From: Myxococcales bacterium
GTDB lineage: Bacteria; Myxococcota; UBA727; VGSZ01
Direction of reading: 5' to 3'
NCBI GenBank assembly: GCA_023248635.1
Contig: JAHFED010000007.1
Coordinates: forward strand, 1 to 64,000
Length of the DNA: 64,000 bases
This document shows positions 45,568-61,590 of the stretch, piece by piece; within the stretch, counting starts at the first letter, position 1, and each line of letters opens with the position of its first letter. Made by a program: the position numbers and the translations under genes. The notes under the pieces are model-generated. The model saw only the letters and a list, made by a program, of their open reading frames with translations, was not told where the DNA came from and made no database searches.

Positions 45568-47178
<1,611 letters not shown>

Positions 47179-47207
47179 CCGCGCCGGCTATAGCAGCTTC
47201 GCCGTCG

Positions 47208-49370
47208 TCATTTCTCGGCCGCCGCTGCCTTGTCCCGCCGCGCCGAGGCCGGCAGTCGTATGATGAAGGTCGCACCATGATCGCGTGAGGGGGCCTCGAT
47301 GGAGCGCACCTCGATCTGCCCGCCGTGGTGCTGAACGATGCGCTGGCAAAGCGCGAGCCCGAGACCGGTGCCCCGCTCCTTGGTCGTGAAGAAGGGAATG
47401 AAGATCTGATTCAACGTCGCCGCCGACATGCCCGGGCCTTCATCTTTGACGCGCACCTCCACCGAACGCAGCGGTCCCTTCAAGCCGATCAGAGCGGCGT
47501 CTTTGAAGCTGTCGACGACGCGGGTGGAGAGAGACACGCGGCCTTTGCGCCCCATGGCATCGGCAGCGTTCAGCACCAAATTGATCAGCACCTGTTGCAA
47601 GCGTTCGGCGTCGCCGCTGACGTCGGGAGCGGCTTCGTCGAGGTCCAGGGTCAGCTGCATGTCGGCCAGATCGTGCTGCATCAGCTGGGCGGTGCGCTTG
47701 ACGGCGTCGTTCACGCTCAACGCTGCAAAGGTGCCGCGAAAGGGGCGCGCATAATCGAGGAATTCGGTGACGACGCCGTTGAGCCGGTTCACCTCGTCGA
47801 TGATGATCTCCATCAGCTCTTTGTCATCGCCGCGCAGCTGCCGGGGATCGAGCTCTTGGGCAGCACCCTTGATGGCGGCGAGGGGGTTTCTGATCTCGTG
47901 GGCCAGGCCGGCCGACATCTCACCGAGGGCCGCGAGTCGATCGCGTTCCCGCAGCACGCCGAACAAGCGGCTGTTCTCGACGTTGATGGCGAGCTGATCG
48001 CAGACGGCGATGAGGGCGGCAATTTCGTCGGAGGCGTAGGCATCGGCGAGCCGTTCGTCGCGCAAGCACAAGAAACCGACGACGTTGCCTTGCACGCGCA
48101 GCGGCACCACGAGGTCGGCGGTGAGCTCATCGAGTCCGCCCAAGAGCGCGGTCTCTTGGGCCACCGATTCCGACTTGCTTTCATCGGCGGCTGGTTGCTC
48201 GAGGGTCCCGCGTTGGGTTGTGAAGGGCCGGTCGTCGCTGCGTCCCAGCCGCCGGGTCAAGGCCTCGCGCGACAGGGGCGTCTGCGCCCGCAACAAGAAG
48301 GCGACCAGCGCTGGGTGCGTGTTGCCGTCGAGGACGCGCACGGGTTGGGCCCCGCGGTACTCCTGCAGTTGAAAGGCGAGGCCGCCCTGATCGAGCAAGT
48401 AGGCGCCGGCGTGGGTGGCCCGCTTGGCTTCGTAGACTTCATCGAGCACGGCGGCGAAGGCGCGGGGCAGCTCAATGGTTGTCATCAGGCGGGGCACCAG
48501 GCGTCGCAGGCCGCGGGTGAAGCTCAGCTGCTCGCGAAAAAACACGCGGGTCGCTGTTTCTTCCAGGCGGGTCTTCACGGGCTCAAAGAGGATCAAGATC
48601 AACGAGCTGGCCACGAGCGTGTTCGACAAGAAGAAGCCGCGGCGGTCGCCGACCCACAGGAACAAGAGGCCGTAGACGACGGCGAGGATCAGCGCCAGCG
48701 AGCCGAACACCAGCACTTTGCCCAAGAGCTCGTGCAGATCGAGAAGCCGCGAAGACAAGATCGCCTGGGACAAGAAGTACACGTAGAGCGCGACGATCAA
48801 TCCGCCGACGGCAGGCAACGGCAGGCCCGCGAAGGCCAGCAGGTCGATGGCGCAAAAGAAGGCCGCGACGATGCCGCCGATGGCCAAGGTCTGCAGCCGC
48901 GTGCGCTCGGCCAGCGAATCGAGGTGGCGGGCCCGACCGAACACGCGCGCCAAACGCGACAACAGCAACAGCAAGAGCACCGTCGACAGCGCCGGCGTCA
49001 CCCCCCGCATCGTCAGCAAGGGCGTGAAGGTGACGACCACCACGAGCAAGGCCGCCAGCAGGGTTCGTCGTCGACGTCGCCGCGCGGACAGCGAGTCCTC
49101 GCCGAGAATGCCGTCAAAGAAGAGATCGGCTGCGACCACGGCGACGGCGGCCAAAGACACCCGCAAGGACAAGAAGCGTGACGGGTCGGCGGCTGCCGAA
49201 CCGGCGATGGCGGCGGCGAGAAAGCTCGCATGGTAGGCGCCGACGGCGAAGGCAAACAGAGCGAAGCGAACCGTTGAGCCCTGCGTCGAGCGCAACAACA
49301 ACGCCGCCGCCGAAGCGATGCAGACGATGACTGCGACGAGGGCGGACTGGGACGCGAGGGTATCGAACAA
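47208..49370 (-). CDS. Polytopic sensor histidine kinase with GAF domain
   Basis: A kinase of about 720 aa. The N-terminal third has seven to nine TM helices (e.g. ALVAVIVCIASAAALLL, TLLAALLVVVVTFTPLL, AVGGLIVALYVYFLSQAIL, LVFGSLALILAVVYGLLFLWVG). A GAF-like domain follows (about 310-470: VVPLRVQGNVVGFLCLRDERL). The HisKA domain has GEMSAGLAHEIRNPLAAIKG (His near 491), and the HATPase domain has NLVLNAADAMG, DEGPGMS and GTGLGLALCQR. The start is uncertain: TTG 49370 has AAGGA upstream and begins just before TM1; TTG 49442 extends it by 24 residues. It is paired with the adjacent NtrC-type regulator. Confidence 0.88.
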   Translation of the reverse strand: MFDTLASQSALVAVIVCIASAAALLLRSTQGSTVRFALFAFAVGAYHASFLAAAIAGSAAADPSRFLSLRVSLAAVAVVAADLFFDGILGEDSLSARRRRRRTLLAALLVVVVTFTPLLTMRGVTPALSTVLLLLLLSRLARVFGRARHLDSLAERTRLQTLAIGGIVAAFFCAIDLLAFAGLPLPAVGGLIVALYVYFLSQAILSSRLLDLHELLGKVLVFGSLALILAVVYGLLFLWVGDRRGFFLSNTLVASSLILILFEPVKTRLEETATRVFFREQLSFTRGLRRLVPRLMTTIELPRAFAAVLDEVYEAKRATHAGAYLLDQGGLAFQLQEYRGAQPVRVLDGNTHPALVAFLLRAQTPLSREALTRRLGRSDDRPFTTQRGTLEQPAADESKSESVAQETALLGGLDELTADLVVPLRVQGNVVGFLCLRDERLADAYASDEIAALIAVCDQLAINVENSRLFGVLRERDRLAALGEMSAGLAHEIRNPLAAIKGAAQELDPRQLRGDDKELMEIIIDEVNRLNGVVTEFLDYARPFRGTFAALSVNDAVKRTAQLMQHDLADMQLTLDLDEAAPDVSGDAERLQQVLINLVLNAADAMGRKGRVSLSTRVVDSFKDAALIGLKGPLRSVEVRVKDEGPGMSAATLNQIFIPFFTTKERGTGLGLALCQRIVQHHGGQIEVRSIEAPSRDHGATFIIRLPASARRDKAAAAEK

Positions 49371-49621
49371 GAGCCTTCGTCCTTCTGGGCGTGACCGGGG
49401 GGCGCTCCGGACAATGGCGCGCTCGTGTCCCAAACGATACAATCAGCGACGCAGGATCAATGGTCGCTTCGGCGACGCTGATGTTCCAGGTCCGCGGGAC
49501 CCGGAAGGCTCGTGGGTTCGAGGTGCTTGCCGGCCTGGAATAACGTCGACGCCGCTGCCGTCTGGTGGTTCCTCGATGGGCAACGGGCTCCTCGAGAGGG
49601 TTTGTGAGGTGTGCCTTCGCC

Positions 49622-54543: not shown

Positions 54544-56603
<2,060 letters not shown>

Positions 56604-56607
<4 letters not shown>

Positions 56608-57617
56608 AGAGCCGCAGCACAGCGTCGCTCCTCTGTGACTGCTCGCTACTGGGTCAGCAAGCAGCGACCCGGCGCGACCAGAGACTCGCAGTCGTCGTCG
56701 TTGGGCTGCTGGCGGCCGCGCCCAGCATCGCTGGCTACGACGGCGCCTTCTGGCACCAGTGGAGCGATGGCAAGGCCGAGGTCGACACCTACAAGCTCAC
56801 CCAGGAGCGCTACGGCGAGCCCCGCGAGGGCGTCGTCGTCGCCATCGTGGTCACCGAGCCCTGGTCGGCCAGCAAGCTGGTGAAAGACGACGGCGCCGTC
56901 GGCCGCGACCGCTTGCCGGTGCTGAAGCTCCACACACTGAAATCATTTCAGACCGGTATCTATGATTATCACTTATCTACCACGGCTTTCATCAACCTAG
57001 AGCCTCTCCAAAACCTGGCGCCTGGTGGTGCTGCTAAACTTTCATTTTCAGCTCAAGAGTGGTGCGGTCAAGTATACCATGAGATCACTGATGATGGCCA
57101 CGGATCTTCAGAGGTGATACGCTCCTACTTTCCGGGCGAGTCGGTGATGCGTCCCCTGACACGCGAGGAGGAACCGGTGCTCGTCGAGGACGCGCTGCTG
57201 CTCTGGGCCCGCGGGCTGGCCGGTCCAGCACTGCCTCTGACGACGTCGACGGTGCGCTTTCAGTCATCGCTCGAGCGCGCCCGCCTGTTGCACCAACCGG
57301 TGGAGCGCGGGGCGGCGACGGTTACTCACGTGGTGGGCAACGCCCTGCCCGGTCACCCCACTGGCTGGGATTCGATCGACATCGCCGCCGGCCACTTCGA
57401 GCGCACCGATCGCTATCGTGTCGTCGTCGGCGACCGCACCATCGACGTCGTTGTCGAGCAGGGCGGAGCGCGCCGGGTGCTGAAGGTTGACAGTGCGGCC
57501 TCTTCTCTCGAGCTGGTGAAGAGCGAACGCCTCGCCTACTGGCAGATGAACCACCAGGCCGACGTCGGCGCCCGCGCGGTGCTGGGTCTGTCCCCCACTC
57601 CCTTGACCCAGGATTGA
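56604..57617 (+). CDS. Exported protein of the 'septum formation inhibitor Maf'-annotated family
   Basis: A 337-aa protein with an N-terminal hydrophobic segment ([17 protein letters not shown]). It matches by pattern an exported family often mis-annotated as 'septum formation inhibitor Maf': [55 protein letters not shown] and [16 protein letters not shown]. It does not show the true Maf nucleotide pyrophosphatase motifs. The function is unknown. The central conserved part (56935-57120) is markedly A/T-richer than the rest. It is translationally coupled to prkA (ATGA) and followed by the phosphatase gene with a 2-bp gap. Confidence 0.72.
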
Positions 57618-57619
57618 CC

Positions 57620-58843
57620 ATGCACGTCGACAGCGCCGCCCTCAGCGACGTGGGGCTCCAACGGACCCACAACGAGGATTGTTGCGTCGCCGACGACGCC
57701 CACGGCATCTACGTCGTCTGCGACGGCATGGGGGGAGCGGAGGCCGGCGAGATCGCCAGCGCCATGGCCCTCGACAGCGTCACGCAGTTCTTTCGCCGCC
57801 GGGTGGCCGAGCTGCGCGGCGGCGACGTCCAGAGCCCAGCGTTTCGCCAGCGCCTGGCCCGTCTCGCCGACTCCGCCATCCAGGAGGCCTGCCAGCACGT
57901 GTACCAAGCCGCCTCCGACGGCGTCAGCGGCAAGCCGGGCATGGGCACCACCCTCACCTTGTTGGTGCTGCTCGACCGCGTGGCCATCACGGGTCACGTC
58001 GGCGACACGCGCATGTACCTCAAACGCGATGAAAAGTTGTATCCTTTAACCCGCGACCACAGCTTCGTTAATGAGATGGTTTCTCGCGGCGCGCTGAGCG
58101 CGGAAGAAGCCCTGCACCACCCCATGGCCAATGTGCTGACCCGCGCGGTGGGTCCCCAGGCCAACGTCGCCGCCGACACCAACGTCCTCGACATCTACGA
58201 AGACGACCTCTTTTTCCTTTGTTCCGACGGCGTCTCGAAGGGGGTCGACGAGCCGGGCATGTTGACTGCCCTCGGGGCACCCACGCTGAAGGCGGCCTGC
58301 CAGGTCATCGTCGACGCCGCCAACGCCGCCGGCGGCGACGACAACGCCACGGTGGTCATGGCCCGGGTGCGGGAGTCCACGGGGATGCACCACCCCTACC
58401 GCGAGGCCGTCGAGGAAAAGATCCGCACCCTGGCCTCGCTGCCGGTCTTTGCCGGCCTCGATCCCAGCGAGCTGGCCGCCGTCGTCAGCGTCGCCGGCCA
58501 ACGCAGCGTCGCCAAAGACGAGGTGATCAGCCGCGCGGGCCTCAAGAGCGAGCAGTTCTACGTGCTGGTGCGCGGCCGGGCCTCGCTGCGCCTGATGGGA
58601 GCCGAGGTGCTCGACATCAACGTCGGCAAGGTCTTTGGCGACGTCGAGATGTTCGTCGGCAAGCCCGCGCTGATGGAGGCCGTCGCCGTCGAGTCCAGTG
58701 AGGTGTTGACCTTTGCGCGGGCGCACCTCGAAGACCTGTTCCTGCGCGATGCCCCCCTGGGGGTCAAGCTGTTGTGGCGCTTCACGACGGCGCTGTCGAC
58801 CAAAGTCGATGAGGTGCTCCGCCGCGGTACCCTCACGGAGTAG
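57620..58843 (+). CDS. PP2C-type phosphatase fused to a cyclic-nucleotide-binding-like domain
   Basis: A 407-aa protein. The PP2C domain (1-255) has all main metal and catalytic motifs: [65 protein letters not shown]. The C-terminal domain (about 270-400) has a cNMP-binding fold: [28 protein letters not shown], and phosphate-cassette region [21 protein letters not shown]. The canonical Arg of that cassette (in RSA) is not seen, so it may sense another ligand or act structurally. It lies between kinase prkA and yeaH and is a candidate antagonist of PrkA-dependent phosphorylation. The start at 57620 has no strong ribosome site and is coupled by proximity. Confidence 0.92.
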
Positions 58844-58883: not shown

Positions 58884-59990
58884 ATGAGCCTTCGCATCCA
58901 GAACGATCACGCGCGCTTCAAAGACATCGTGCGCGGCAAGATCAAGAGCAACCTCAAGCAATATATCAAGAAGGGTGAGCTGATCGGCAAGCAGGGCAAG
59001 GACAAGATCACCATCCCCGTGCCGCGCATCGACCTGCCGCACTTCCGCTTCGGCGACAAATCCCAGGGCGGCGTCGGGCAGGGTGAAGGCCAACCCGGTG
59101 ACAGCGTCGACGGCGAAGAAGGCGAAGGATCGGGTGCTGGCAAGGCCGGCCAAGAGGGGGGCGAGCACGGCCTCGAGGTCGACATCACCCTCGACGAATT
59201 GGCCGACATGCTCGGCGAAGAGCTGGAGTTGCCCCGCATCGAGCCCAAGGGCACCGACCTGGTCACCCAGCGCATCAAGTACACAGGCGTCAACACCGTC
59301 GGGCCTGAATCACTCAAGCATTTCAAGCGCACCTACAAGCAGGCGTTGCGGCGCCAGATTGCCATCGGGAGCTACGATCCCAAGAACCCCATCATCGTGC
59401 CGGTGCGCGAAGACCGCCGCTACCGCACCTGGCGCATCGAACAGAAACCCCAGGCCAACGCCGTCATCGTCTATATGATGGATGTCTCTGGATCGATGGG
59501 TGAAGAGCAAAAAGAAATCGTGCGCATCGAGAGCTTCTGGCTCGACGCCTGGCTGCGGCGCAACTACGACGGCGTCGCCAGCCGCTACATCATCCACGAT
59601 GCTGTGGCCAAGGAGGTCGACAAGGAGACCTTCTTCCACACCCGTGAGTCGGGCGGCACCATGATCAGCTCCGCCTATCGTTTGTGCGCCGATATTATTG
59701 ACAATGATTATCCGGTAGATTCGTGGAATATATATCCATTTCACTTCTCGGACGGTGACAATTGGTCCATCGACGACACGCGGACTTGCATTGGTCTCTT
59801 GCGCGAGCGCATTTTGCCGACGGCGAATCAGTTTTCTTATGGGCAGGTTGAGTCGCCTTATGGTTCAGGTCAGTTTATCAAGGACTTGAGTGAGAACCTT
59901 GGCAAGCATGAAAAGGTGGTTCTCTCTGAGATCAAAGACAAAGAGAGCATCTACGGCAGCATCAAGGACTTTCTCGGGAGCGGCCGTTGA
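58884..59990 (+). CDS. yeaH: YeaH/DUF444 VWA-domain protein
   Basis: A 368-aa protein of the DUF444 family. It has the basic N-terminal region ([24 protein letters not shown]), a Gly/Glu-rich acidic linker (about 60-100), then the von Willebrand A-like domain with MIDAS-like [12 protein letters not shown] and the conserved [23 protein letters not shown] and [17 protein letters not shown]. YeaH partners PrkA/YeaG and is needed for its stress function in enterobacteria. The ATG at 58884 is preceded by GGGAG. Several 3' segments are locally A/T-rich (59690-59900). Confidence 0.95.
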
Positions 59991-60093: not shown

Positions 60094-61590
60094 ATGCCAA
60101 AGCGATTGCCCCCTCAATACGCCGACATGCAAGCCCAAATCGAAGAGCACGCGCGCACCGCGGGCCTCGATATGTTCGAATGCCACTACGAAATGCTCGA
60201 CTACGACGAAATCAACATGGTTGCGTCGTACATGGGCTTTCCCGTGCGCTATCCCCATTGGAAGTGGGGCATGGAATATGAGCGCATGTCGAAGTCCTAT
60301 GAGTACGGACTTCACAAGATCTATGAAATGGTGATTAACAACGATCCCTGTTACGCCTACCTGCTTGAATCCAACGCCATGACCGACCAGAAATTGGTCA
60401 TGTGTCACGTCAGCGGTCACAACGACTTCTTCAAGAATAATTTCTGCTTCCAGCACACCAACCGCAAGATGATCGACGAGATGGCGAACCACGCCACCCG
60501 CATCCGGCGCTACATCGATTGGTACGGCGTCGAAGTCGTCGAGTCCTTCGTCGACAAGTGCTTGAGCATCGACAACCTCATCGACATCGAAGCGCCCTAC
60601 ATCATGCGCAAGCGCAAAGAGGGCGCCGAAGCCCCGATGCAGCCGTCGGACAAGAAGCGCGAGTTGGGACTGTTGCCCAACACCAAAGAGTATATGGAGC
60701 GCTACATCAATCCCGACGAGTTTGTCGCAGCGCAGAAGAAGAAATTCGACGACGAACAGAAGAAGCAGAAGAAGTTTCCACCGGAGCCTGAGCGCGATGT
60801 CATGCAGTTCTTGATGGAGCATGCTCCGCTCGAACGTTGGCAAGTCGACGTCATGGACATGCTGCGCGGCGAAGCCTATTATTTTGCACCCCAAGGCATG
60901 ACCAAGATCATGAACGAGGGCTGGGCTTCCTATTGGCACAGCCGCTTGATGACCGAGAAGGTCATGGACAGCTCGGAGGTCATCGACTTCGCCGACAAGA
61001 ACGCTGGCGTGATGTCGACGTCGAGGACGCAGCTCAATCCCTATGCGCTGGGTCTCGCGCTCTACCGCGACATCGAAGATCGCTGGAACCGCGGCCGCTT
61101 CGGCAAGGAGTGGCACGAGTGCGACGACATGGCCGAACGGCGACGCTGGGACAAAGCCACCGGCATCGGGCGCGAGAAGATCTTCCAGGTGCGACAGATC
61201 TATTCAGACGTCACCTTCATCGACGAATTCTTCACCATTGATTTTTGCCGCGAGCACGGCTTCTTTGCCTATGAGTACGACCGCAAGAAGAAGAGCTTCG
61301 TCATCGACAGCCGCGAGTTCCAGGCGGTAAAGCAGAAGATTTTGCAGTCGCTGACGAACTTCGGGCAGCCCGTGATCAAGGTGACCGACGGCAATTTCGA
61401 AAACCGCGCCGAGCTGCTGCTCGAGCACAACCACGAAGGCGTCGACCTTGACGGCACCTACACGCACGACACCCTGCGAAACATCCAGGCCATCTGGACC
61501 CGGCCCGTGCACCTGCTGACCGCCATCGAGCAGCGCAAGGTGCTGCTGACCTTTGATGGCCGCAGTTTTTCGGAGAAAACGATCTCTTAG
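60094..61590 (+). CDS. spoVR: SpoVR family protein
   Basis: A 498-aa protein. The SpoVR core is evident: MFECHYEMLDYDEINMVASYMGFP, HWKWGMEYERM, MCHVSGHNDFFKNNFCF, EPERDVMQFLMEHAPLERWQ and MNEGWASYWHSRLMTEKV. In Bacillus SpoVR affects spore cortex formation; in proteobacteria (YcgB) it clusters with prkA/yeaH. The catalytic role is unknown; recent work suggests peptidoglycan-related regulation. AAGGA lies upstream of ATG 60094, 104 bp after yeaH; that gap holds short GCGC hairpins. The 3' end overlaps the convergent flippase-like gene by 4 bp. Confidence 0.95.
   Translation: MPKRLPPQYADMQAQIEEHARTAGLDMFECHYEMLDYDEINMVASYMGFPVRYPHWKWGMEYERMSKSYEYGLHKIYEMVINNDPCYAYLLESNAMTDQKLVMCHVSGHNDFFKNNFCFQHTNRKMIDEMANHATRIRRYIDWYGVEVVESFVDKCLSIDNLIDIEAPYIMRKRKEGAEAPMQPSDKKRELGLLPNTKEYMERYINPDEFVAAQKKKFDDEQKKQKKFPPEPERDVMQFLMEHAPLERWQVDVMDMLRGEAYYFAPQGMTKIMNEGWASYWHSRLMTEKVMDSSEVIDFADKNAGVMSTSRTQLNPYALGLALYRDIEDRWNRGRFGKEWHECDDMAERRRWDKATGIGREKIFQVRQIYSDVTFIDEFFTIDFCREHGFFAYEYDRKKKSFVIDSREFQAVKQKILQSLTNFGQPVIKVTDGNFENRAELLLEHNHEGVDLDGTYTHDTLRNIQAIWTRPVHLLTAIEQRKVLLTFDGRSFSEKTIS

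Follow-up and report, generated by a model that had tools for sequence, protein, structure and literature searches.

In the window, the 64,000-nucleotide stretch of DNA analysed here, a gene for a PP2C phosphatase with a C-terminal cyclic-nucleotide-binding (CNB) domain lies inside a prkA-yeaH-spoVR cluster, and its phosphate-binding cassette lacks the Arg that nearly all examined relatives possess. According to the reading favoured here, to which a probability of about one half is assigned, a PP2C-CNB phosphatase arose by duplication, was taken up into the PrkA operon, lost its coupling to cyclic nucleotides and now acts on a partner in the PrkA pathway.

The gene occupies positions 57620-58843 of the forward strand (stop codon included), starts with ATG and encodes 407 amino acids. 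The original prediction of a PP2C phosphatase carrying a C-terminal CNB domain was borne out, as both Pfam domains were found and both folds were modelled confidently. The catalytic domain comprises residues 1-252 (57620..58375, forward strand), delimited by Pfam PP2C_2 and by the alignment of the model to PstP (1txo), and the CNB domain with its flanking helices comprises residues 263-407 (58406..58840, forward strand), delimited by PF00027 and by a model of this domain only. In Pfam, residues 16-224 matched PP2C_2 (E 1.9e-14), and residues 295-376 matched cNMP_binding (PF00027; 39.4 bits, E 6.2e-10), the latter above the cut-off. An AlphaFold2 model of the full-length protein, built from a 37-row alignment, gave a mean pLDDT of 89.7 and a pTM of 0.84; its catalytic part has the PP2C fold, matching PstP (1txo) with Z 32.8 and rmsd 2.1 over 235 positions and also matching the structure of tPphA. 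Because the PP2C matches hid the CNB domain in the structure search with the full model, this domain was modelled separately. The CNB-only model (pLDDT 90.0, with a confident C-terminal helix) has the CNB fold and matched cAMP-bound GlxR (3r6s) with Z 20.0 and rmsd 1.7 over 138 positions.

It had also been claimed that the catalytic domain keeps all PP2C motifs. This stands for the core motifs R15, N18-E19-D20, D35-G36, G128-D129, D203-G204 and D241-N242, which are invariant in 37/37 rows and whose conserved Asp residues we take to be the metal-binding ones, but it fails for GMGGH, whose His is replaced by Ala40 (57737..57739, forward strand). Residue 40 is His in 32 of the 37 rows, Ala in four (the window protein, its orthologue in genome G055 and two others) and Tyr in one. 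The mutated site of the tPphA H39A variant, a solved structure (5d2u), aligns with this residue. As the catalytic His of GMGGH is absent, phosphatase activity of the window protein is not assured. Compared with Stp1, PstP and tPphA, the protein is alike in catalytic fold and invariant motifs; it differs in the replaced His, in the added C-terminal CNB domain and in its score against the NCBIfam Stp1 model (210.8 bits, below the equivalog cut-off of 230). In searches bearing on a phage or defence link, two PHROGs families of unknown function and a single PADLOC entry (PDC-M21C, E 4.3e-10) were matched, all over the PP2C half.

The cassette covers residues 336-357 (58625..58690, forward strand) as delimited by the alignment of PP2C-CNB rows, and includes residues 339-357, the stretch flagged from the sequence beforehand. 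Its codons include those of D341 (58640-58642), E343 (58646-58648) and, at the Arg site, A350 (58667-58669), which is followed by L351. The alignment, A2, has 37 rows drawn from homologue searches, mostly the best locus of each genome, and is a subset of all PP2C-CNB matches; the one-domain matches L004-L008, L047 and L048 were omitted from it, together with L009, which is the same gene as L038. At position 350, which corresponds to R209 of PKA, Arg is present in 35/37 rows, and Ala occurs only in the window protein and the G055 orthologue. The surrounding positions are Pro at 349 in 36/37 rows, Ser at 351 in 34/37 (Leu in the window protein, Val in the orthologue) and Ala at 352 in 35/37 (Met and Leu, respectively). 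The claim of a degenerate cassette devoid of Arg is thus upheld by the alignment and by the confident CNB-fold model. A check of the alignment for an Arg displaced by a short gap had been named in advance, and this possibility is ruled out: the window cassette is ungapped relative to the other rows, no Arg occurs between residues 339 and 366, and the next Arg, R367, is not a displaced cassette residue because it is invariant in 37/37 rows. A single-genome artefact is likewise ruled out by the same substitution in the G055 orthologue (63% identity). Since the change from Arg to Ala occurs in the orthologue and in 0/35 of the other rows, it is more than a chance event in one genome.

Arg209 of PKA coordinates the phosphate of the cyclic nucleotide (PMC2246266). 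By analogy with PKA, binding of a cyclic phosphate by the window protein appears unlikely, because the cassette Arg is missing and Glu residues are present. The sensor domain probably either has no need of cyclic nucleotides or responds to a different ligand, and judged from its residues the cassette would be compatible with either a nucleoside-type pocket or a ligand-free regulatory or docking domain. Retained binding of an anionic nucleotide (a cNMP, a c-di-nucleotide or another) via different residues is very improbable: a non-canonical cassette on the CNB fold can go with another ligand, such as heme in CooA (PMC2246266), but Glu343 and Glu353 are present in both orthologues, and the basic K337 and K348 of the window protein are not conserved, being Ala and His in the G055 orthologue.

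To place this substitution among CNB domains in general, cassettes were read in the loci with a PF00027 match of five related genomes (G000, G040, G044, G055 and G023), using a profile of the PP2C-CNB rows; identical strings were collapsed to 143 distinct ones, two gapped strings were set aside, and some weak matches among the remaining 141 may be misaligned. Arg was present in 113/141 of these ungapped strings and absent in 28/141, which rules out the supposition that Arg loss is rare in CNB domains; on this count, it is ordinary among CNB domains at large. The notable point is that all Arg losses in the examined PP2C-CNB rows fall within a single orthologous pair. At the position of residue 343, Glu was found in 5/113 strings with Arg and in 4/28 without it, namely the window protein, the G055 orthologue, L265 and L271. 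In the last two (from G044 and G000), Glu stands at the position of A202 of PKA, the cassette Arg is replaced by His and the cassette Gly by Ala (AEMEVLT..., HMEDC). In L211, L204, L160 and L192 (from G044, G055, G000 and G040), the cassette belongs to the second of two CNB domains and has Thr for Arg, followed by Cys-Ala.

Intact PP2C-CNB paralogues are common in the phylum. Matches to the window protein were found in 191/193 genomes of the phylum sample, PP2C-only and CNB-only matches included, and nearly all among the matches listed span both domains; the window genome has two further full-length PP2C-CNB paralogues with intact cassettes. The copy in the prkA operon is known from two orthologous sequences, those of the window and G055, both of one genus. 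In a maximum-likelihood tree, this pair forms a clade with 100/100 support, which a long branch of 2.37 changes per column separates from the other 35 rows; the tree is rooted at its midpoint, so that the duplication and its direction are only inferred. A scan of contigs for relatives used patterns in the PP2C half and confirmed 95 loci; among the best 80 of these 95, the nearest is on the same G055 contig. Of the other 79 loci, 78 match at most residues 1-299, and the scan therefore says little on further orthologues.

The two domains of the prkA-operon pair have changed at different rates. Identity between the window protein and the G055 orthologue is 68.4% in the PP2C domain and 57.9% in the CNB domain (Fisher p 0.039), with NG86 dN/dS values of 0.159 and 0.308, respectively. 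In the intact paralogues, the order is the opposite, with 72.5% in the CNB domain versus 70.0% in the PP2C domain for one pair (Fisher p 0.64) and 91.3% versus 83.2% for another (Fisher p 0.032). The faster change of the CNB domain fits relaxed or changed selection that is still purifying, the difference being modest. It could also be explained by relaxed constraint, in which the CNB domain is vestigial and drifts after the loss of its ligand, leaving the phosphatase simply constitutive. This explanation, which is unlikely although it deserves some weight, agrees with the lower conservation of the CNB domain in this pair and with a short tail after the KLLW motif. At 21 residues, this tail is shorter in the window protein than in any of 30 further rows measured; the G055 orthologue, with 26, exceeds two of these rows (23) and falls below the remaining 28 (31-55). 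Against it, the dN/dS of the CNB domain is still 0.31, R367, K383 and W386 are retained, and the fold is predicted confidently up to and including the C-terminal helix; a dN/dS below 1 together with well-formed models argues against a dead domain.

Regarding the genomic context, the order in the window is prkA, a gene for a protein designated X, PP2C-CNB, yeaH and spoVR, all on the forward strand. PrkA (54544..56607), a putative protein kinase with AAA+ and PrkA C-terminal domains in Pfam, is the first gene of the cluster; the query used for domain and neighbourhood searches started at 54589, and was thus 15 residues shorter than the product of the true ATG at 54544. X (56604..57617, 337 amino acids) shares 4 nt with the stop end of prkA, and 2 nt separate it from the start of PP2C. 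The gene for a YeaH/YhbH family protein (DUF444; 58884..59990; Pfam and NCBIfam) begins 40 nt past the PP2C stop, and that for a SpoVR family protein (60094..61590; Pfam and NCBIfam) follows after a further gap of 103 nt. This tight spacing on one strand counts for the favoured reading. In G055, the end of prkA, of which the contig includes only the last 89 residues of the product, is followed by PP2C-CNB, yeaH and spoVR, without X between prkA and PP2C. Among 20 other prkA neighbourhoods of the phylum, yeaH was present in 19 and spoVR in 14 (several contigs end early), and none contained a PP2C match (tblastn, E 1e-4; 0/20). That the phosphatase gene separates prkA from yeaH in both the window and G055, with no PP2C match in the 20 others, counts for the favoured reading. 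Against it, there are only two such orthologues, both of one genus, and in G040, a genome of the same genus, prkA, yeaH and spoVR are arranged with nothing between prkA and yeaH, and no close match to the window PP2C-CNB was found elsewhere in that genome. In G023, another genome of the order, prkA and yeaH are separated by an interval of about 3.5 kb (L051, 5064-8621) that contains other ORFs; by eye, one of these is lipoprotein-like and one is membrane-protein-like. The prkA-yeaH junction thus seems to accept insertions, as X in the window and the interval in G023 indicate, and for this reason the location of a gene there says little, by itself, about a common function. Protein X had no match in Pfam, PHROGs or PADLOC and has relatives in 6/38 other genomes searched. 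The G+C content falls to about 0.5 within the X region (56904-57103), compared with 0.63-0.73 around it. Elsewhere in the window, on the reverse strand (45571-49442), a GAF-domain histidine kinase adjoins a sigma-54 response regulator.

Under the favoured reading of duplication and recruitment, a myxobacterial PP2C-CNB Ser/Thr phosphatase would have been duplicated and, in one sublineage, one copy would have been placed inside the prkA-yeaH-spoVR stress cluster. Its CNB domain would have lost its hold on the phosphate of cyclic nucleotides through the change of Arg350 to Ala, together with changes at 343, 351, 352 and 353, and the phosphatase would thereby no longer be under the control of cAMP or cGMP. 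The retained CNB fold would probably serve regulation or docking without a ligand. The phosphatase, if active, would most likely dephosphorylate a partner of the PrkA pathway, which may be PrkA itself, YeaH, SpoVR or a shared client, and would antagonise PrkA-dependent signalling; the substrate and the direction of the effect are guesses from the operon context.

An alternative is that the cassette turned into a ribose-binding one, as in the PKA regulatory subunits (PKARs) of trypanosomatids, and that an uncharged purine nucleoside controls the phosphatase; in that case Glu343 would contact the ribose hydroxyls and exclude a cyclic phosphate. This is improbable, and its fuller form, in which a bacterial PP2C is gated by purine nucleosides via an independently acquired ribose cassette and the nucleoside level sets the dephosphorylation of PrkA-YeaH-SpoVR, is a long shot. 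According to the description in PMC10959531, inosine and guanosine are ligands of the CNB domains of these subunits; inosine is bound by the cassettes of T. brucei PKAR, GELELMYQTPTVA and GELEFLNNHANVA, in which Glu replaces A202 of PKARIa as the critical residue, R209 is replaced by Thr or Asn and A210 by Val. The cassette of the G055 orthologue is GEVECFDGHPAVL. Like the trypanosomatid proteins (6flo, 6hyi and 6ftf), the prkA-operon pair has Glu at the A202 position (E343), no Arg at R209 (A350) and no Ala at A210 (L351 in the window, Val in the orthologue). These proteins are eukaryotic tandem-CNB kinase subunits, in contrast to the PP2C of the window. At the position of the other ribose Glu (E200), moreover, Glu is present in the G055 orthologue but Asp in the window protein, and the Met or Leu in place of the small Ala at 352, two residues past the lost Arg, could fill the pocket. 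Glu combined with a residue other than Arg also occurs in the L265/L271 pair, and the prkA-operon pair amounts to two sequences only.

Profile comparisons weigh on both sides of the nucleoside alternative. When a profile of the window and G055 CNB domains (A3) was scored against 108 PDB sequences, inosine-bound T. brucei PKAR (6flo) ranked first with 47.4 bits for the whole chain, a rank that reflects the summed scores of its two CNB domains; T. cruzi PKAR (6ftf/6hyi) followed with 45.8, and the mutant 6h4g, in which site A is altered back in the direction of cAMP, obtained 41.9. The G055 orthologue alone also preferred 6flo to 6h4g (46.6 versus 41.7), whereas the order was reversed for a profile of the intact paralogues (A5; 6h4g 65.2, 6flo 59.3, both far below PKG at 121.3) and for the intact L043 alone (55.2 and 50.6). 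For another CNB domain without Arg, 6flo ranked 28th (52.6 versus 52.1 for 6h4g). However, the closest single-domain similarity is not to a trypanosomatid PKAR: with A3, the best single domain of 6flo scored 23.2 bits, less than the single-CNB chains of DNR (2z69; 36.1) and MloK1 (1u12; 34.4). The margins are also small (yeast Bcy1 44.4 and PKG 43.1 with A3; PKG 46.0 against 46.6 for 6flo with the orthologue), and with the window CNB domain alone PKA RII and Bcy1 ranked first, 6flo obtaining 17.4 bits (E 0.036). The absolute similarity to 6flo is not raised (the G055 orthologue, L038, 46.6; intact L043, 50.6; the other domain without Arg, 52.6); what fell is the similarity to cyclic-nucleotide binders. 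The comparison between wild type and mutant, furthermore, rests on the same three residues. T. brucei PKAR was absent from the 50 structural matches listed for the CNB-only model, which carries no weight either way.

PP2C proteins with a C-terminal cNMP domain have been described from myxobacteria (Mxan4398, sce2855 and sce6950), with control by cAMP or cGMP suggested, and the combination was stated to be absent outside Myxococcales in the database used there (PMC2887360). The same report describes eukaryotic-like kinase and phosphatase genes of myxobacteria as rarely paired directly, which counts against the favoured reading. As far as this published description goes, the window copy and its orthologue have the same domain order and are set apart by the missing cassette Arg and the location in a prkA cluster. 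Non-canonical cassettes on the CNB fold are also described for PDZ-GEF, K_HCN, CooA and CprK (PMC2246266), from which the fused domains and cassette sequences differ. Regarding PrkA, E. coli has a yeaG-yeaH operon and requires YeaG to adapt to nitrogen starvation, and recombinant YeaG was reported to have kinase activity in vitro (PMC4664914); for PrkA of B. anthracis, negligible kinase activity was reported (PMC13001217), and the activity is thus disputed between the two accounts, a further point against the favoured reading. The window resembles these systems, as they are described, in its PrkA family protein and in keeping prkA and yeaH family genes together, and differs from them in PP2C-CNB and X between the two and in spoVR downstream. 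Neither a PP2C gene in a prkA operon nor a PP2C-CNB protein with this cassette was found in the literature searched (open-licence, mostly at the level of titles and abstracts); the architecture is known from myxobacteria, and the altered cassette and the prkA-cluster context were not found in that published work. The stress operon of PrkA/YeaG and YeaH, which here includes SpoVR, is conserved widely, and its biochemistry is not settled; a phosphatase inside it would point to reversible phosphorylation as part of how it works and would help in finding the substrate. With its altered copy and two intact paralogues, moreover, the window genome offers a natural before-and-after pair for a CNB domain leaving cyclic nucleotides.

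The architecture also appears outside myxobacteria. A Halobacteriovoraceae MAG contig (L070, 2505-3698) matches residues 1-403 of the window protein with 32% identity, and thereby both domains, beyond the Myxococcales range given in the published description.
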